Positions 43,472 through 63,026 of a stretch of DNA of 64,000 nucleotides are shown here, piece by piece. Source of the DNA: Desulfoplanes formicivorans (GTDB lineage Bacteria; Desulfobacterota; Desulfovibrionia; Desulfovibrionales; Desulfomicrobiaceae). The notes under the pieces are model-generated. The model saw only the letters and a program-made list of their open reading frames with translations, was not told the DNA's origin and searched no databases. Every line of letters begins with the position of its first letter. Positions within the stretch are counted from its first letter, which is position 1. Made by a program: the position numbers and the translations under genes. The stretch lies in contig NZ_BDFE01000004.1 of assembly GCF_001748225.1 (NCBI RefSeq), positions 62,001 through 126,000 on the forward strand. The letters run 5' to 3'.

Positions 43472-45022
43472 CTATCCGGTTGTCTTGTGCAAAAGGGATC
43501 GGCCAGTCATCTCCGCAGGCTGCTTTATACCGAGCAAGCCAAGGAGCGTCGGGGCCACGTCGCATAACGCCCCGCCACTTCGCAGGGAATATTCCGTTGC
43601 CTCCGAACCCACCAGCACGCAGGGGACCGGATTGAGACTGTGAGAGGTCTTGGTCCCGCCGCCTGCGTCAAGCATGTCCTCGGCATTGCCGTGATCCGCT
43701 GTAATCAGACCCGTACCGCCAGTCTTGTCCAACGCCTTCAAAACCCGGCCCACGCATTGGTCCACGGCCTCACAGGCGGCAACAGCCGCCGGGATGACCC
43801 CCGTATGCCCCACCATATCCAGATTGGCGAAATTGCAGACAATGAGCCGATATTTTCTGCGATGAATCGCTTCACACAGGACATCGGTCACCGCGTTCAC
43901 GCTCATTTCGGGTTTTTGATCATAGGTTGCCACTTCACGGGGTGAAGGCACGAGCAACCGCTCCTCGCCTTCAAAAGGCTCTTCACGGCCGCCGTTGAAA
44001 AAATAGGTTACATGGGCGTATTTCTCGGTTTCAGCAACCCGAAACTGGCTGGCCCCGTTGCTGGCCACCACCTCGCCCAGGATATTGGTCATGCTGACAG
44101 GTGGAAAGGCCGCCGGAAGTCCGAAATGATGGTCATATTGCGTCATGGTGGCCATGGCGCAAAGACGGGGGATCTTTGTGCGCGTAAATTCCTTGAAATG
44201 CGGATCAAACAGGGCCTGGGTCAGCTGCCTGGCCCGATCCGCCCGAAAATTGAAGAAAAAGACCGCATCCCCGTCTTGGATCGTTCCCACGGGGCCACCA
44301 GGTGTCCGAATCACCTGCGGCTTGACGAACTCGTCGTTATCCCCCTGATCATAGGCGGCCTGGATGGCAGCCAGAGGATCGTCGGCAGCAACGCCCTCGC
44401 CCTGGGTCATGGCGTCATACGCCAGTTTAATGCGATCCCACCGTTTGTCCCGATCCATGGCATAAAAACGTCCGCTGACCGTGGCAATGCGGCCCACACC
44501 CAGGGCGTCCATATCTGCCATCAATTTGCGGACATAAGCAAGCCCGCCCTTGGGAGGGGTATCCCGCCCATCCAGAAAAACATGGATCAGAACATCCTTG
44601 AAATGCTTCTCCTTGCACAGGGCCAAAAGGGCCGCAAGATGGGCCTGATCACTGTGCACGCCGCCATCCGAGACCAAGCCCATGAAATGAATGCGCCCCC
44701 CCCGCGCCCGGGCCGATTCAATAAGGTCCTCAAGCACCGAGTTGCTGCGCAGGGAACCATCCCGGACAGCCAGGTTGATGCGCATGATGTCCTGATACAC
44801 GACCCGACCGGCCCCCAGATTGAGATGCCCCACCTCGGAATTGCCCATCTGCCCAGGGGGGAGGCCAACGGACTCGCCCATGCATTGAAGTTCCGTGTTC
44901 GGGCAGGTAGCAAGCAAAGCATCCAGATGCGGGGTTTTGGCCAGGGAAATGGCATTTCCCGGTCCGGGAGCACCCTTGCCCCATCCGTCCAGAATCAACA
45001 GGAGTACGGGATGATCAACCAT
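43472..45022 (-). CDS. gpmI: 2,3-bisphosphoglycerate-independent phosphoglycerate mutase
   Basis: A 516-residue alkaline-phosphatase-superfamily enzyme interconverting 3- and 2-phosphoglycerate. LLILDGWGKG at the N terminus and the phospho-Ser loop QMGNSEVGHLNLGAGR near residue 60 are diagnostic; metal ligands are in ITADHGNAEDM near residue 437. Its start overlaps the rsfS end by 8 nt, so rsfS and gpmI are translationally linked. Confidence 0.97.
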   Translation of the reverse strand: MVDHPVLLLILDGWGKGAPGPGNAISLAKTPHLDALLATCPNTELQCMGESVGLPPGQMGNSEVGHLNLGAGRVVYQDIMRINLAVRDGSLRSNSVLEDLIESARARGGRIHFMGLVSDGGVHSDQAHLAALLALCKEKHFKDVLIHVFLDGRDTPPKGGLAYVRKLMADMDALGVGRIATVSGRFYAMDRDKRWDRIKLAYDAMTQGEGVAADDPLAAIQAAYDQGDNDEFVKPQVIRTPGGPVGTIQDGDAVFFFNFRADRARQLTQALFDPHFKEFTRTKIPRLCAMATMTQYDHHFGLPAAFPPVSMTNILGEVVASNGASQFRVAETEKYAHVTYFFNGGREEPFEGEERLLVPSPREVATYDQKPEMSVNAVTDVLCEAIHRRKYRLIVCNFANLDMVGHTGVIPAAVAACEAVDQCVGRVLKALDKTGGTGLITADHGNAEDMLDAGGGTKTSHSLNPVPCVLVGSEATEYSLRSGGALCDVAPTLLGLLGIKQPAEMTGRSLLHKTTG

Positions 45023-45395
45023 CAGCTTCCTCTCCTGGAGTTACAGCAACCCGGGGCACATCCGCGAACAATCCTTCAAGGTTGTAAAGTTCCCTGACAT
45101 CTTCCTGAAAAATGTGGACCACCACATCGTTGAAATCCACCAGAATCCATTGCCCGATGTCCATACCTTCGGATCCCATGGCCGGAGCACCGTGCTGCTT
45201 GCCCTGTTCCAGAAGCCACGCACCCAACGACTTGGCCTGACGTGCGCTGTTGGCCGTGGCAATGATCATTCCCTCGGTCACCGAGGAAAAATTCCGTACA
45301 TCCAGGCCAACGACATCCCGGGCCTTTTTTTCATGAAGCCATGCGATGATTTGTTCCAAACGATCGTGTATAGAGGTACTGCTCTCTTCGGACAT
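45015..45395 (-). CDS. rsfS: Ribosomal silencing factor RsfS
   Basis: A 126-residue RsfS/Iojap protein that binds uL14 and blocks 30S-50S joining during starvation. Signature blocks are KKARDVVGLDVRNFSS and the central DFNDVVVHIFQEDVRELYNLEGL. AAGGAG precedes the start codon. Cotranscribed with gpmI. Confidence 0.95.
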   Translation of the reverse strand: MSEESSTSIHDRLEQIIAWLHEKKARDVVGLDVRNFSSVTEGMIIATANSARQAKSLGAWLLEQGKQHGAPAMGSEGMDIGQWILVDFNDVVVHIFQEDVRELYNLEGLFADVPRVAVTPGEEADG

Positions 45396-45595
45396 GCTTT
45401 CTCCTTAAGCGGGCCGCACGGGGCCCAAATGAAATCAGTAACGAAAACGGGATATCCCGACATGCGGAATCTGTCCCGCGCTGGTCGCTGCTGTCAACCA
45501 GATATGCATACGTCAAAGTTACCTGCAGAGCAAATCATTCTCCCGGCAAGCACCAATGATTCCGGGGCCCCATGGTTTCAGGCCCAAAAAACAGC

Positions 45596-45624
45596 TTGAC
45601 ACCGCGTCCGGACTTTGCAACATG
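45596..45624 (+). promoter_or_regulatory. Candidate promoter of the Phe-leader/paaK operon
   Basis: TTGACA at 45596-45601, a 17-nt spacer and a weak AACATG at 45619-45624 with TGC just before it. Transcription from here would include the leader peptide frame. Confidence 0.45.
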
Positions 45625-45634
45625 TTTTCCCACC

Positions 45635-45721
45635 ATGAACCAGACTTTCACCACTTTTTCCCTGTTTTATTTTTATTTTTTTACCTTTGCGCACAAAGGG
45701 GAATCCGTGGTGTCGGCCTAG
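45635..45721 (+). CDS. Phe/Tyr-rich leader peptide of an attenuator
   Basis: A 28-codon frame, opening MNQTFTTF and running through FSLFYFYFFTF before the end HKGESVVSA. It holds seven Phe codons, six of them within codons 8-18, and two Tyr codons. This composition is that of PheL/PheM-type leader peptides, whose translation senses charged tRNA-Phe. It is followed by the mutually exclusive hairpins described below. The ribosome site is weak, with no clear AGGAG, which is its weakest point. Downstream lies paaK rather than pheA or pheST. Confidence 0.7.
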   Translation: MNQTFTTFSLFYFYFFTFAHKGESVVSA

Positions 45722-45758
45722 GCACATACAATAGCAAATCAAGCAACCAAACCGCGGA
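45704..45758 (+). promoter_or_regulatory. Antiterminator pairing of the Phe attenuator
   Basis: TCCGTGGT (45704-45711, codons 24-26 of the leader) is complementary, with one G-U pair, to ACCGCGGA (45751-45758), which also contains most of the 5' arm of the terminator. A ribosome stalled at the Phe codons (up to 45688) leaves 45704-45711 free and would allow this pairing; a ribosome reaching the stop at 45719 covers it and lets the terminator form. Confidence 0.6.
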
Positions 45759-45784
45759 CAGCCTCATCTGACCGCGGTTTTTTT
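45749..45784 (+). terminator. Attenuator terminator upstream of paaK
   Basis: Perfect 9-bp stem AAACCGCGG (45749-45757) / CCGCGGTTT (45772-45780) followed by T-rich TTTTTTTATT. It stands between the leader peptide and the phenylacetate-CoA ligase gene, not at the end of any gene. Confidence 0.85.
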
Positions 45785-45855
45785 ATTGTTTTCAGCCACC
45801 GGGGCGGAGCCTTTATTCAGCCGCCCCTTCATTCAAGATTCCAGGGAGACGGACC

Positions 45856-47154
45856 ATGATGTACGATGTTGCACGCGAAACCATGCCGCGGGAAGAACTT
45901 GAAGCCTTGCAGACAAGTCGCCTTACCTATCTTGTGGACAAGCTGTACCACAACGTTCCCTTTTACCGGGAAAAATTCAGGGAACTGGGGGTGAGGCCCG
46001 AACAGATCAAATCCCTCAATGACCTCAAATACCTCCCGTTCACGGAAAAGCAGGACCTGCGCAACAACTACCCGTACGGCCTCTTTGCCACCCCCAAGGA
46101 GAACATCGTCCGCATCCATGCCTCTTCGGGAACAACAGGCAAGGCCACGGTAGTCGGATATACCCAGCGTGACGTGGAAACCTGGGCCAAGCTCATGGCC
46201 CGTTGCCTCATGGCCACGGGCGGCTCCCGCCGGGATATGGTCCATAACGCCTACGGATACGGACTGTTCACCGGCGGTCTCGGCATGCACTATGGTGCGG
46301 AAAAACTCGGGGCAACCATCATGCCCTTTTCCGGAGGCGGAACCAGGCGCCAGGTCATGCTCATGAAGGATTTCGGGTCGACCATTTTGTGCAGCACGCC
46401 GTCCTATGCCGTCAAATTGTATGAAACCATCATTGCCGCCGGCATGGCTCCCGAGGATCTCAAACTCAGAATAGGCGTCTTTGGTGCGGAGCCCTGGAGT
46501 GAAGGCATGCGCCAGGAAATCCAATCCAAACTGGGAGTCAAGGCCTTTGACATCTACGGCCTTTCGGAAATCATGGGCCCGGGCGTGGCCATTGAATGCG
46601 ATACGGCCCAAAACGGTCTGCACATCTGGGAAGACCATTTCATTCCGGAAATCATTGATCCTGCCACAGGCGAGGTTCTACCCATGGGCGAAACCGGCGA
46701 GCTGGTCATCACCACCATCACCAAGGAGGGTATCCCCCTCATCCGCTACAGGACCCGGGACATCACGGCCCTGAATCCGGTTCCCTGCAAATGCGGCCGG
46801 ACCCATGTACGCATGAGCAGGATCAAGGGGCGCAGTGACGACATGCTCATCATCCGCGGCGTCAATGTCTTCCCCACCCAGATCGAATCCATTCTTCTGG
46901 ATACCCACGGCCTGACGTCCCACTATCAACTGATCATCCGCCGTGAAGGGGCCATGGATACCCTGGAGGCCCGGGTGGAAATCGACGAAAAACTCTTCTC
47001 TGACAAAATCAAACATTTACAGAAAATTGAAGCCAAGCTACAACGGGACATCAAGGAATTTCTGGGTGTCACCGCCAAGGTATCGCTGGTCGAGCCGCAA
47101 ACCATTGAACGTTCCCAGGGCAAGGCCAAAAGGATCGTTGATCTGCGTTCGTAA
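45856..47154 (+). CDS. paaK: Phenylacetate-CoA ligase
   Basis: A 432-residue adenylate-forming enzyme that activates phenylacetate or related aryl acids to CoA thioesters. The P-loop is [15 protein letters not shown] near residue 91; A-motifs [11 protein letters not shown] and [11 protein letters not shown] follow; the C-terminal [18 protein letters not shown] is typical of PaaK. The ATG follows GGGAG. Upstream are the Phe-rich leader and attenuator; 63 nt downstream is an ACT-domain gene. In anaerobes such ligases can support reductive carboxylation of aryl acids to aryl-pyruvates; that role here is inferred from the attenuator. Confidence 0.94.
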
Positions 47155-47217
47155 TCCAGTCAGGCGAGAGACGTCGGCCCCTTCGATCCAAACCGAACAA
47201 CCTACGAGGGAATAGTC

Positions 47218-47649
47218 ATGAAAGTCGAACAAATATCCGTATTCCTGGAAAACAGAGCCGGAAGACTGAGCGAGGTCACCCGGGTTCTGGCCGATTCCGG
47301 CATCAACATCAGGGCCCTGTCCCTGGCCGACACGTCGGATTTCGGCATCCTCAGGCTCATTGTCACCAATCACGAAAAGGCCAAGCAGGTTCTCAAGGAA
47401 AACGGCTTTACCGTAGGCCGGACCAATGTGGTGGCTGCAGAAATGGAAGACAAACCGGGTGGACTGCACCACATCCTGAACATCCTGGGCCAACAGGGGG
47501 TCAATGTGGAATACATGTACGCCTTTGTGCAGCAAAGCGGCAAGAACGCCGTGCTCATCTTCCGCTTTGATCGCACGGATCAGGCCATCGAGATTCTTCA
47601 GGACAACGGCGTCCGGATCCTGTCGGGCGAAGAAGTCTACAACATCTGA
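47218..47649 (+). CDS. Tandem ACT-domain protein
   Basis: A 143-residue protein made of two ACT domains (residues 3-68 and 71-140), each with the amino-acid-binding turn: [21 protein letters not shown] and [23 protein letters not shown] domains sense amino acids. Genes of this type commonly follow paaK in anaerobes, and here it shares the attenuated transcript. It may sense aromatic amino acids and control the ligase; that is inference. Confidence 0.9.
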
Positions 47650-47901
47650 TACACGGGGCAGGCTGCGGTAGCCCAGACAAAGGTACTGCAGCCTGCCGGA
47701 ACAGCCTGTTTTCCGGAAATTTCACGCGGACACCCAAGCCACTTCAGGGCCACGGCCAGGCACCCATGTATTTCCTTGATCCGTCTTCGAAGACCTTGAG
47801 TTGCCCTTCTTCGTGACTTTCGCGTCCTTGCCCACCGCCCATGCAAACCTCTTTGCGCCCAGCATTACGGTGATTCCCGTACACACCTTCAGGAGATTTT
47901 C

Positions 47902-49071
47902 ATGAGCCACATGTTACGCCTTTTTTGTCTCTGTCTTGTTCTTGTCGCAACCACGGCCTGCGGAACCAGCGACCAGGAATCCGCCTCCAGCACACAAGAT
48001 ACCTCCTCCAGTGAGGCAACCATTAAAATCGGGGCGGTACTGCGTCTTTCACGCGGGGCCTCGGACGGCCTGCCCGCCCGACACGGCATGGAAATCGCCG
48101 TGAACCAGATCAACGCGGCCGGCGGGATCAACGGCAAGCAACTGGAAATCATCTTTTATGACAGCAAGGACGACTCGACCACAGCCGTCAATGCCGTGCA
48201 AAAACTCATTTCCGTGGACAAGGTCCAGGCCATTATCGGTCCCATGATGAGCGGCAACGTCCTGGCTTCGGCCCCCCTGTGCAACCGCAACAAGGTGGTT
48301 ATGATCACTCCGTCGGGGACTTCGCCCAAGATTTCCCAGGCTGGCCCCTATGTCTTTCGCCTGTGTACCCCCATTCATACCCAGGCAAAGGCGCTGGTTG
48401 CCAAAGCCGTGGCCCTGAGCGGCAAAAGCAATCCCAGCGCGGCCATCGTGTACAGCAATGATCCCTATGGCAAAGGCTGCAAGAACCTGTTCACCAGCTA
48501 TCTTGGGGAACTGGGCATCATCCCGGTGGGCGTGGAGGCCTTTCAGCGCGGGGACAAGGATTTTCAGGCCCAGCTGACAAATATTGCAGGCAAAAATCCC
48601 GATCTCCTCTTTTTCCCCGGCTATCTCCAGGAAACAGCCCCCCTCATGAGCCAGGCCAGGCAGATGGGTCTTACGGGTCTCAGTGTGGGTGTATTCGGGG
48701 ACATGGCCCCCCTGTACATCGAACTTGCGGGCAAGGCGGCCGAAGGCCATCTGAACGCCAGCGAATACGACGAAGCCAACCCCTCGGCAACCAACAAGAA
48801 ATTCGTTGCCGCCTACAGGAAGATCCTGGCCGAAAATCCCCAGGCTTCCAACAACATCATGTTCGCCTCGCTGACGTATGACGCAGTCCAGCTCCTGGCA
48901 GATGCCTTTTCCCGGGGAGCCTTTACCGGGGAAGCCATCAGAAACCACCTGGCAACCGTAAACGCCTTTCCGGGCGTGACCGGCTCCCTGTCCTTTGATG
49001 CCAACGGCGATGTCCAGAAGGGAGATGTCTATCTCTTCCAGGTCAAACAAGGAACCTACCAAAGGATATGA
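47902..49071 (+). CDS. livK: Branched-chain-amino-acid-type ABC transporter substrate-binding lipoprotein
   Basis: A 389-residue periplasmic binding protein with a lipoprotein signal ending in LVATTAC (Cys at about residue 20). The mature part is a type I periplasmic fold: IKIGAVLRLSRGASDGLPAR, VNQINAAGGINGKQLEII and IGPMMSGNVLASAPL. LivK-type proteins bind branched-chain or other amino acids, and some members bind aromatic acids. CAGGAG precedes the ATG. It lies 252 nt after the ACT gene and upstream of livH. Confidence 0.9.
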   Translation: MSHMLRLFCLCLVLVATTACGTSDQESASSTQDTSSSEATIKIGAVLRLSRGASDGLPARHGMEIAVNQINAAGGINGKQLEIIFYDSKDDSTTAVNAVQKLISVDKVQAIIGPMMSGNVLASAPLCNRNKVVMITPSGTSPKISQAGPYVFRLCTPIHTQAKALVAKAVALSGKSNPSAAIVYSNDPYGKGCKNLFTSYLGELGIIPVGVEAFQRGDKDFQAQLTNIAGKNPDLLFFPGYLQETAPLMSQARQMGLTGLSVGVFGDMAPLYIELAGKAAEGHLNASEYDEANPSATNKKFVAAYRKILAENPQASNNIMFASLTYDAVQLLADAFSRGAFTGEAIRNHLATVNAFPGVTGSLSFDANGDVQKGDVYLFQVKQGTYQRI

Positions 49072-49148
49072 AACACGACTGAAGGACGCAGGACCTGCAG
49101 GAATCATCCCGGATTGCATATTCTGCGTCCCGATGCCTTGAAAAAACC

Positions 49149-50012
49149 ATGCTCACCCAACAAATCGTCAACGGTCTTGTCTCCGGTTCGGCCTATGCAT
49201 TGGTGGCCCTTGGCTACACCCTCATCTACGGGGTGCTCGGTCTGATCAACCTGGCCCAGGGAGAATTGTACATGGCCGGAGCCTTTGGCCTGTGGGCCGG
49301 CATGGCCTGGCTCGGGCTGCCCTTTCCCGTGGCCGTACTCTTCGGCCTGCTCCTGACCGGGATCGTGGGCGTGTCCATGGATCGGTTCGTGTTCCGCCCC
49401 TTGCGCAACCGACACCCGCTCATTCCCATGCTCGCGGCCATTGGCCTGTCCATCATGCTCCAATCCCTGGCCCTGCTCTGTTTCGGTCCGGAAACCAAAC
49501 CCTTTGCCCTGGAACTTCCGCCTGCCCATCTGAGCCTGGGGCCTGTGCGCATCTCCCTTATCCAGATCATGCTCATGGGAAGCGCCCTTGTGGTCATGAT
49601 GGGACTCATCTGGTTTGTGCACTTCTCCAGAAACGGCAAGGCCCTGCAGGCCGTGGCCCTGTCACCGGAAGCGGCCAGAATCGTGGGGATCAAGCCGGAT
49701 GCCTGCATCGGCATGGCCTTTTTTGCCAGCGCCCTCATGAGCGGGGCCGCCGGCATGATGATGGCCGCCTATTACAACGCCACCTATCCCTACATGGGCG
49801 TGCTTCCCGGACTGAAAGGATTCTGCGCGGCCGTTCTGGGCGGTGCCGGGTCCATTCCCGGAGCCATCCTGGGCGGCCTGCTCCTTGGTCTGGCGGAAAA
49901 CCTGGGGGCAGCCTATGTTGCCTCGGGATTCAAGGACGCCTTTGCCTTTGGCATCCTCATCGTCATTTTGCTTGTCCGCCCCTCCGGTATCCTGGGCCGT
50001 CGAAAAAAATGA
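49149..50012 (+). CDS. livH: LivH-type ABC transporter permease
   Basis: A 287-residue membrane protein with eight helices, beginning MLTQQIVNGLVSGSAYALVA and with GLINLAQGELYMAGAF, hallmarks of LivH. It contains the KAVLGGAGSIPGAILGG-like loop (AAVLGGAGSIPGAILGGLLL). A full transporter also needs LivM, LivG and LivF, none of which follows: the next gene is a DUF721 protein. Partners must be elsewhere. Confidence 0.92.
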   Translation: MLTQQIVNGLVSGSAYALVALGYTLIYGVLGLINLAQGELYMAGAFGLWAGMAWLGLPFPVAVLFGLLLTGIVGVSMDRFVFRPLRNRHPLIPMLAAIGLSIMLQSLALLCFGPETKPFALELPPAHLSLGPVRISLIQIMLMGSALVVMMGLIWFVHFSRNGKALQAVALSPEAARIVGIKPDACIGMAFFASALMSGAAGMMMAAYYNATYPYMGVLPGLKGFCAAVLGGAGSIPGAILGGLLLGLAENLGAAYVASGFKDAFAFGILIVILLVRPSGILGRRKK

Positions 50013-62711: not shown

Positions 62712-63026
62712 ATGAATTGGACGATTCTCGTCCTTGCCGGCCTGTTTGAAACCGGCTGGGCCATCGGCCTGAAGTTCACCCATGGATTTACCAGATTGTG
62801 GCCGACCGTTTGGACCATCCTGGCAATGGTGGTCAGCCTCTGGCTGCTGGGCATTGCAGTCAAATCACTTCCCGTAGGCACGGCGTACACGGTCTGGGTG
62901 GGTGTGGGAGCCATCGGAACGGTCATTCTCGGCATCATGCTGTTCGGAGAACCCGCCAATATTGGTCGGCTGATCAGCATCGGGCTCATTGTGGCCGGTA
63001 TCATCGGGCTCAAGGTCGCATCCTAA
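62712..63026 (+). CDS. sugE: Guanidinium exporter of the SMR family (SugE/Gdx)
   Basis: A 104-residue, four-helix small multidrug resistance protein. Glu13 in [14 protein letters not shown] is the proton and substrate carboxylate, and the WxGLK end with Lys marks the Gdx subclass rather than EmrE. The guanidine-II riboswitch directly upstream confirms guanidinium as substrate. Confidence 0.95.

Follow-up and report, generated by a model that had tools for sequence, protein, structure and literature searches.

The enzyme PaaK is classically catabolic, and PaaK homologues are commonly annotated as such; an amino-acid-specific leader ahead of a paaK gene may serve as a readable clue to the direction and the substrate of the encoded enzyme. 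In the window, the whole 64,000-nucleotide stretch of Desulfoplanes formicivorans DNA analyzed here, an earlier note had placed a phenylalanine-rich frame and a terminator in front of such a gene. This raises the question of whether the ligase is controlled by the supply of phenylalanine, and what this would imply for its function. The features of the locus, all on the forward strand, are as follows.

45596..45601, forward strand: probable -35 element TTGACA, by sequence; TTGAC-to-ATG distance 39 nt
45618..45623, forward strand: possible -10 element CAACAT, a weak match by sequence and spacing only
45635..45721, forward strand: leader frame MNQTFTTFSLFYFYFFTFAHKGESVVSA plus TAG stop, 28 codons with seven Phe and two Tyr
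45649..45654, forward strand: protector (segment 1), partner 45707-45712, from the minimum free energy (MFE) structure
45704..45711, forward strand: antiterminator 5' arm (segment 2), TCCGTGGT, leader codons 24-26, 8 pairs
45751..45758, forward strand: antiterminator 3' arm (segment 3), ACCGCGGA, overlapping the terminator 5' arm
45749..45784, forward strand: intrinsic terminator with T-run, by folding and a purpose-made terminator scan
45856..47154, forward strand: controlled gene, PaaK-type arylacetate-CoA ligase (TIGR02155, AMP-binding, AMP-binding_C_2)
47218..47649, forward strand: ACT-domain pair protein (PF19571), probably co-transcribed with the ligase
47902..50012, forward strand: LivK- and LivH-like genes, by profile matches, after a 252-bp gap

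The ligase matches the PaaK equivalog TIGR02155 over its full length with 626.2 bits, just below the cut-off of 646.3, and its nearest solved chains are the phenylacetate-CoA ligases 2y27, 2y4o and 4r1l. Upstream of it, the frame described in the earlier note was found at the given place with the same codon content when its coordinates were re-checked, and the terminator behind it likewise has its stem starting at 45749 and a T-run reaching to 45784. The best ATG frame within the 140 nt before the terminator holds seven Phe codons, compared to a mean of 0.77 in dinucleotide shuffles, and none of 200 shuffled sequences yielded a frame with seven.

Phe-rich leaders are conserved ahead of paaK in Desulfovibrionales

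All 22 family genomes carry the ligase gene (E <= 1e-150), as do 221 of the 297 from the order (E <= 1e-190). For comparison, 127 upstream regions of more than 100 nt were collected (L109 and L150, with 68 and 52 nt, were excluded), which left 115 distinct ones after removal of identical sequences. Terminators were sought within 175 nt, and ATG frames of 8-32 codons that held three or more Phe were counted as leaders. The purpose-made scan found a terminator in 54 of the 115 upstreams and none in 61; leaders with at least three, four and five Phe codons preceded 39, 25 and 17 of the 54, respectively, the proportions 54/115 and 39/54 not being population frequencies because the leader-bearing genera g22, g28 and g23 had been sampled deeper. 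As a control, 608 terminator-like sites elsewhere in 1.36 Mb of DNA of the same order (counting both strands, with overlap between some loci) were scored, of which nine had at least three Phe, two at least four, both being one place seen twice, and none at least five. Fisher's test of paaK upstreams against control sites gave 7e-42 for at least three Phe and 4e-28 for at least four, the related species among the upstreams not being independent events.

Leaders rich in Phe are spread over seven genera, which belong to four families. Their sequences diverge between genera while the Phe content is kept, as in the leader of the congener, MTNTYTSFSFFYFFTFTKRKRSVVSV, that of Desulfohalobium retbaense, MTAFPSTISFFATYWYFWYGFRSESVVV, and those of further relatives, MQLLNYATDKFNFPFFAFFNFNKYYMSVA, MQSRNFPFLFSFYYFFYFCVKLGSGG, MQQFLFARFFWFTGSL, MIKLFFFRFFFFMGLP and MLNHDFFTFFRFFFFWTIN. 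Frames with at least three Phe were found in both upstreams of the window's genus (g1), in 2/3 of g13, 15/17 of g22, 7/11 of g28 (L268 doubtful), 2/3 of g23, 1/1 of g9 and 1/2 of g51 (L166, doubtful). They are weaker in g2 (9/16), which includes Desulfomicrobium baculatum, and have there, next to Ile and Tyr, a core of FPIF or FLIF; leaders of the Desulfomicrobium group are Phe-poor, with 2-4 Phe beside Ile and Tyr. In 31 other genera, mostly represented by one to three upstreams each, no frame with at least three Phe was found, and in several leader-free genera a TTGAC element lies directly ahead of paaK without a terminator, as judged by eye.

Three of the frames called as leaders are doubtful. 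L166 looks false, as it has no TTGAC, and so does L268, with its ATG 20 nt from TTGAC and an antiterminator p of 0.26; the frame called in L091 fits less well than one that begins 4 nt earlier (MHASAFSPIFPIV..., two Phe). All three were kept in the leader, antiterminator, spacing, stall and genus counts and omitted from the pair table (36 rows, 24 used per position). In L271 and L272 (g28), for which the scan found no terminator, ATC or ATT stands at the site of the leader ATG, 37 nt past TTGAC, followed by Phe-bearing codons; these may be decaying attenuators.

A Phe-rich frame might also arise by chance where an ordinary terminator happens to follow T-rich DNA: the tract is indeed T-rich, a second frame through it is likewise Phe-rich, and a generic promoter and terminator scan (44000-47500) flagged neither the leader promoter nor the attenuator terminator. 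However, Phe content, antiterminator and promoter spacing (see below) all exceed their controls, and the excess also holds in T-poor leader regions (14% T in L171, 18% in L266), which makes a chance origin extremely improbable. A different possibility is that the leader works as a peptide, by nascent-chain stalling or as a trans-acting product, and not as a sensor of Phe codons; PMC7298713 describes such a case, peTrpL of Sinorhizobium meliloti, which acts in trans. Against this, the leader sequences vary widely across genera at constant Phe content, and six aligned g22 leaders show TTT/TTC variation at one site and Phe/Tyr at one, so that we regard a function of the peptide itself as very unlikely, though not quite as remote as chance.

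The leader can form mutually exclusive structures

Folding of 45625-45790 yielded an MFE of -41.2 kcal/mol (z -3.31), with 1 of 200 shuffles as stable, and the part behind the leader, 45722-45790, reached -19.3 kcal/mol (z -4.56), with 0 of 200. The pairing of codons 24-26, TCCGTGGT, with ACCGCGGA, proposed in the earlier note, was confirmed at 45704-45711 and 45751-45758, comprising 8 pairs with a duplex energy of -14.1 kcal/mol (p against shuffles 0.047 for the window and 0.02 for the congener). The MFE structure in addition contains a protector helix, 45649-45654 with 45707-45712, which the note had not mentioned; the duplex of segments 1 and 2, taken over the wider region around the protector, amounts to -18.5 kcal/mol.

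Among relatives, the complement of the terminator 5' arm co-varies with this arm, TCCGTGGT/ACCGCGGA in the window corresponding to GCTCGTGG/CCACGGGC in L158 and L266, GGGACTCGTGG/CCACGGGTTCC in L260 and GTCCGTGGC/GCCACGGAC in L110. In L267 (GCTTGTGG/CCACAGGC, terminator arm CCTGTGG), both helices accommodate a single change in the 5' arm by matching bases. Because the best match had been picked for each locus, the antiterminator was compared with shuffles: among the 39 loci with a Phe leader, 27 had p at or below 0.05 and 21 at or below 0.01, compared to 2 and 0 among the 15 that have a terminator but fewer Phe. The Desulfomicrobium group mostly fails this comparison, with p 0.08-0.38 in 8 of 9 loci with at least three Phe. 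Two geometries occur: in the window, L087, L110 and L136 the antiterminator arm falls inside the final codons of the leader, and in most of g22 and g28 it begins beside the stop codon. Both the Phe codons and the alternative pairing, on whose retention in relatives the earlier note had made its proposal depend, are kept, and the parts of the device, their conservation and the alternative pairings are borne out by sequence and comparison.

Modelled ribosome stalling frees the antiterminator

To model the position of the ribosome, the RNA was masked as far as 15 nt beyond the first base of the codon in the P site. As long as the terminator 3' arm was unmade, a ribosome at Phe codon 5, 8, 11, 13, 15, 16 or 18 left 8 of 8 antiterminator pairs, and a ribosome at codon 24, 28 or the stop left none, reproducing the geometry outlined earlier, in which a stall at the Phe codons frees the antiterminator and a ribosome at the stop codon covers it. 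When the terminator 3' arm has been made in full, the terminator surpasses the antiterminator in stability in all ribosome states modelled for the window; the switch therefore depends on folding order, as known attenuators do. Across the 39 Phe-leader loci, a ribosome at the middle Phe allowed the antiterminator in 36, one at the last Phe in 39 and one at the stop in 12; for roughly one locus in three, simple masking therefore fails to yield the off state. In silico, the device of the window combines the parts of an attenuator, namely a short Phe-rich frame, an intervening terminator and an antiterminator that is freed by stalling and excludes the terminator.

We propose that transcription would begin at the leader ATG or a few bases ahead. 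With ample Phe-tRNA, the ribosome would reach the stop at 45719-45721 and cover 45704-45711, whereupon the terminator would form and paaK would not be transcribed. With scarce Phe-tRNA, it would halt on the Phe codons (5-18) and open the protector helix, and the freed 45704-45711 would pair with 45751-45758, enabling RNA polymerase to continue into paaK and the ACT gene. In the case that no ribosome is present, the protector helix would occupy 45704-45711, making termination the default. An attenuator at this site is very likely real; its switching behaviour is predicted by the model, which points to Phe starvation as the likely signal.

The leader message is probably leaderless

The earlier note had named the lack of a strong ribosome site for the leader as its weak point. 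This absence stands, and the doubt that it cast would be answered by a probable leaderless start. The distance from TTGAC to the leader ATG is 35-40 nt in 35 of the 39 loci, most commonly 36 nt (19 loci), and two of the four exceptions (L260, L276) fit given an alternative start or an alternative TTGAC; none of nine control frames has TTGAC at 35-40 nt. A -35 element at this distance would place the start of transcription at or beside the ATG, in the window near 45630 as expected from the -10/-35 spacing; the possible -10 element CAACAT was not flagged by the consensus scan. From the spacing between TTGAC and ATG we infer a leader message that is probably leaderless or almost leaderless, which would explain the absent ribosome site. 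Amino acid attenuators may in this clade act through leaderless or nearly leaderless messages.

An inverted repeat spans the paaK promoter in L088-L098 (CCTTGAC-N11-GTCAAGG in L088), and in L096 the promoter-spanning repeat reads TTGACGAACAATAATCGATTGTTCAAGG; both may be regulator sites.

Gene neighborhood and pathway

A match to the ACT domain was found in 57 of 80 homologous loci, mostly about 1.3-1.4 kb past the paaK start, and an iorA-like gene in 31 of 80, mostly about 2 to 3 kb before paaK. In the genome of the window, IorA scores above its curated cut-off on another contig and not beside the paaK gene of the window. A pheA-type domain is also present in this genome; a phenylacetate route would therefore supplement the normal synthesis of Phe and not replace it. 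By eye, no leader was seen in the upstream stretch of either the iorA gene or the pheA domain of this genome.

A reductive aryl-acid route to aromatic amino acids exists, e.g., in methanogens. The Phe-rich leader and the switchable terminator suggest that the sulfate reducer D. formicivorans produces the ligase under Phe shortage, which points to a synthesis of Phe from phenylacetate: the product of the ligase, phenylacetyl-CoA, would enter a reductive route to phenylpyruvate and Phe that depends on indolepyruvate:ferredoxin oxidoreductase (IOR). The likely meaning of the device is that Phe starvation would induce an arylacetate-CoA ligase feeding this oxidoreductase in reverse.

In the 252-bp gap between the ACT gene and livK, a GC-rich inverted repeat without a T-run was seen by eye at 47657-47697 (GGCAGGCTGC...GCAGCCTGCC). 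Further downstream, the window contains an ordinary Guanidine-II riboswitch (RF01068, 62643-62689), followed by a gene for a 104-aa membrane protein (62712-63026) that by eye resembles a small multidrug resistance transporter.

A paralogous ligase gene is preceded by a Trp leader

The same genome encodes a second PaaK-type ligase outside the window (G000:C15:36092-37339; L003, L122), which is 43% identical to the ligase of the window. Its leader, MHVPETTTAYWWWRNLV with a stop, contains Trp codons (AYWWWRN), has its ATG 38 nt past TTGACA and is followed by a terminator. Modelling yielded a relay of five segments: as long as the 3' arm has yet to be made, a ribosome at codon 10, 11, 12, 13 or 15 allows A:B and C:D to pair, giving the antiterminator, and one at codon 17 or the stop leads to B:C and then to the terminator; by the model, this ties the relay to the Tyr-Trp codons. 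The Trp leader rests on one sequence, as it was not found in 49 other upstreams and the copy of the congener is cut by a contig end.

A Phe-type T-box precedes paaK in several Bacillota

T-boxes read through when bound by uncharged tRNA. Among 15 Bacillota-titled loci scanned (L060, L064 and L079 omitted), seven have a T-box before the paaK orthologue, ending some 50 to 180 nt upstream of it (L007, L011, L012, L035, L039, L067, L068); the hosts are four Acetobacterium, one Eubacteriaceae and two Clostridiaceae records. The specifier loop reads GAA-(G/A)-UUC-(A/C)-CUC in all seven, and a T-box before a trpS gene (TIGR00233 above cut-off) in the same scan reads GAA-UGG-A-CUC. Aligned from the CUC side, the paaK specifier is UUC (Phe), and from the GAA side GUU or AUU, varying between loci; the invariant reading, as judged from these alignments, is UUC for Phe. 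No RF00230 T-box was found in the window, and no Rfam 15 leader family reached the gathering threshold at the window site or in 15 loci with such leaders.

These T-boxes bear on the direction of the enzyme. If the attenuator were real and the ligase degraded Phe or phenylacetate, the control would merely limit waste; the classical role of PaaK and four more PaaK-like matches in the genome, besides the Trp-leader paralogue, would be compatible with this. However, the modelled geometry yields expression on Phe shortage, whereas a breakdown enzyme would be expected to be on at plenty, and the Phe T-box in Bacillota points to the same direction, leaving a catabolic role improbable, if less so than the alternatives considered above. 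We therefore favor, with a probability of roughly 0.84, the reading that the device before paaK is a ribosome-mediated Phe transcription attenuator whose ligase feeds a reductive, IOR-dependent route to Phe. The response to Phe and the substrate of the enzyme are inferred, and the anabolic role is a reasoned proposal.

A wider reading, which we consider somewhat better than even, is that unrelated devices in two phyla, the leaderless-leader attenuator in Desulfovibrionales and the T-box in Bacillota, mark a Phe-starvation-induced "catabolic" enzyme as regulated biosynthetic salvage, and that the leader codons name the substrate of each paralogue (Phe: phenylacetate; Trp: probably indoleacetate). 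If true, reductive aryl-acid salvage would be a regulated branch of amino acid biosynthesis. Amino-acid-specific leaders of this kind suggest that a CO2-fixing shortcut to aromatic amino acids may be maintained in some anaerobes and governed by starvation.

Comparison with known systems

Phe attenuators control pheA and pheST in enteric bacteria. The device described here shares with them the Phe-rich leader peptide and the mutually exclusive antiterminator and terminator (attenuation of pheA is mentioned in PMC5343134). It differs in its target, an arylacetate-CoA ligase, in a leader that is probably leaderless and in matching no Rfam family at the gathering threshold. A precedent for such a start is trpL of S. 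meliloti, where, according to PMC7298713, the 5' end of the message is the leader ATG; that leader is specific for Trp and the present one for Phe, with a start here deduced from promoter spacing only. With the Phe T-box of Bacillota (RF00230) the device has in common the gene, the amino acid signal and antitermination on shortage, whereas the T-box, absent from the window, senses tRNA directly and has no leader peptide. The proposed pathway resembles the reductive aryl-acid route of methanogens in combining an arylacetate ligase with an IOR run reductively; unlike that route, it is proposed from regulation and gene neighborhood. In the open-access (PMC) literature, to which the search was confined, no description of an attenuator or T-box on paaK was found. 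The mechanism is already known in kind; its target gene, the probable leaderless start and the relay of the paralogue look new.
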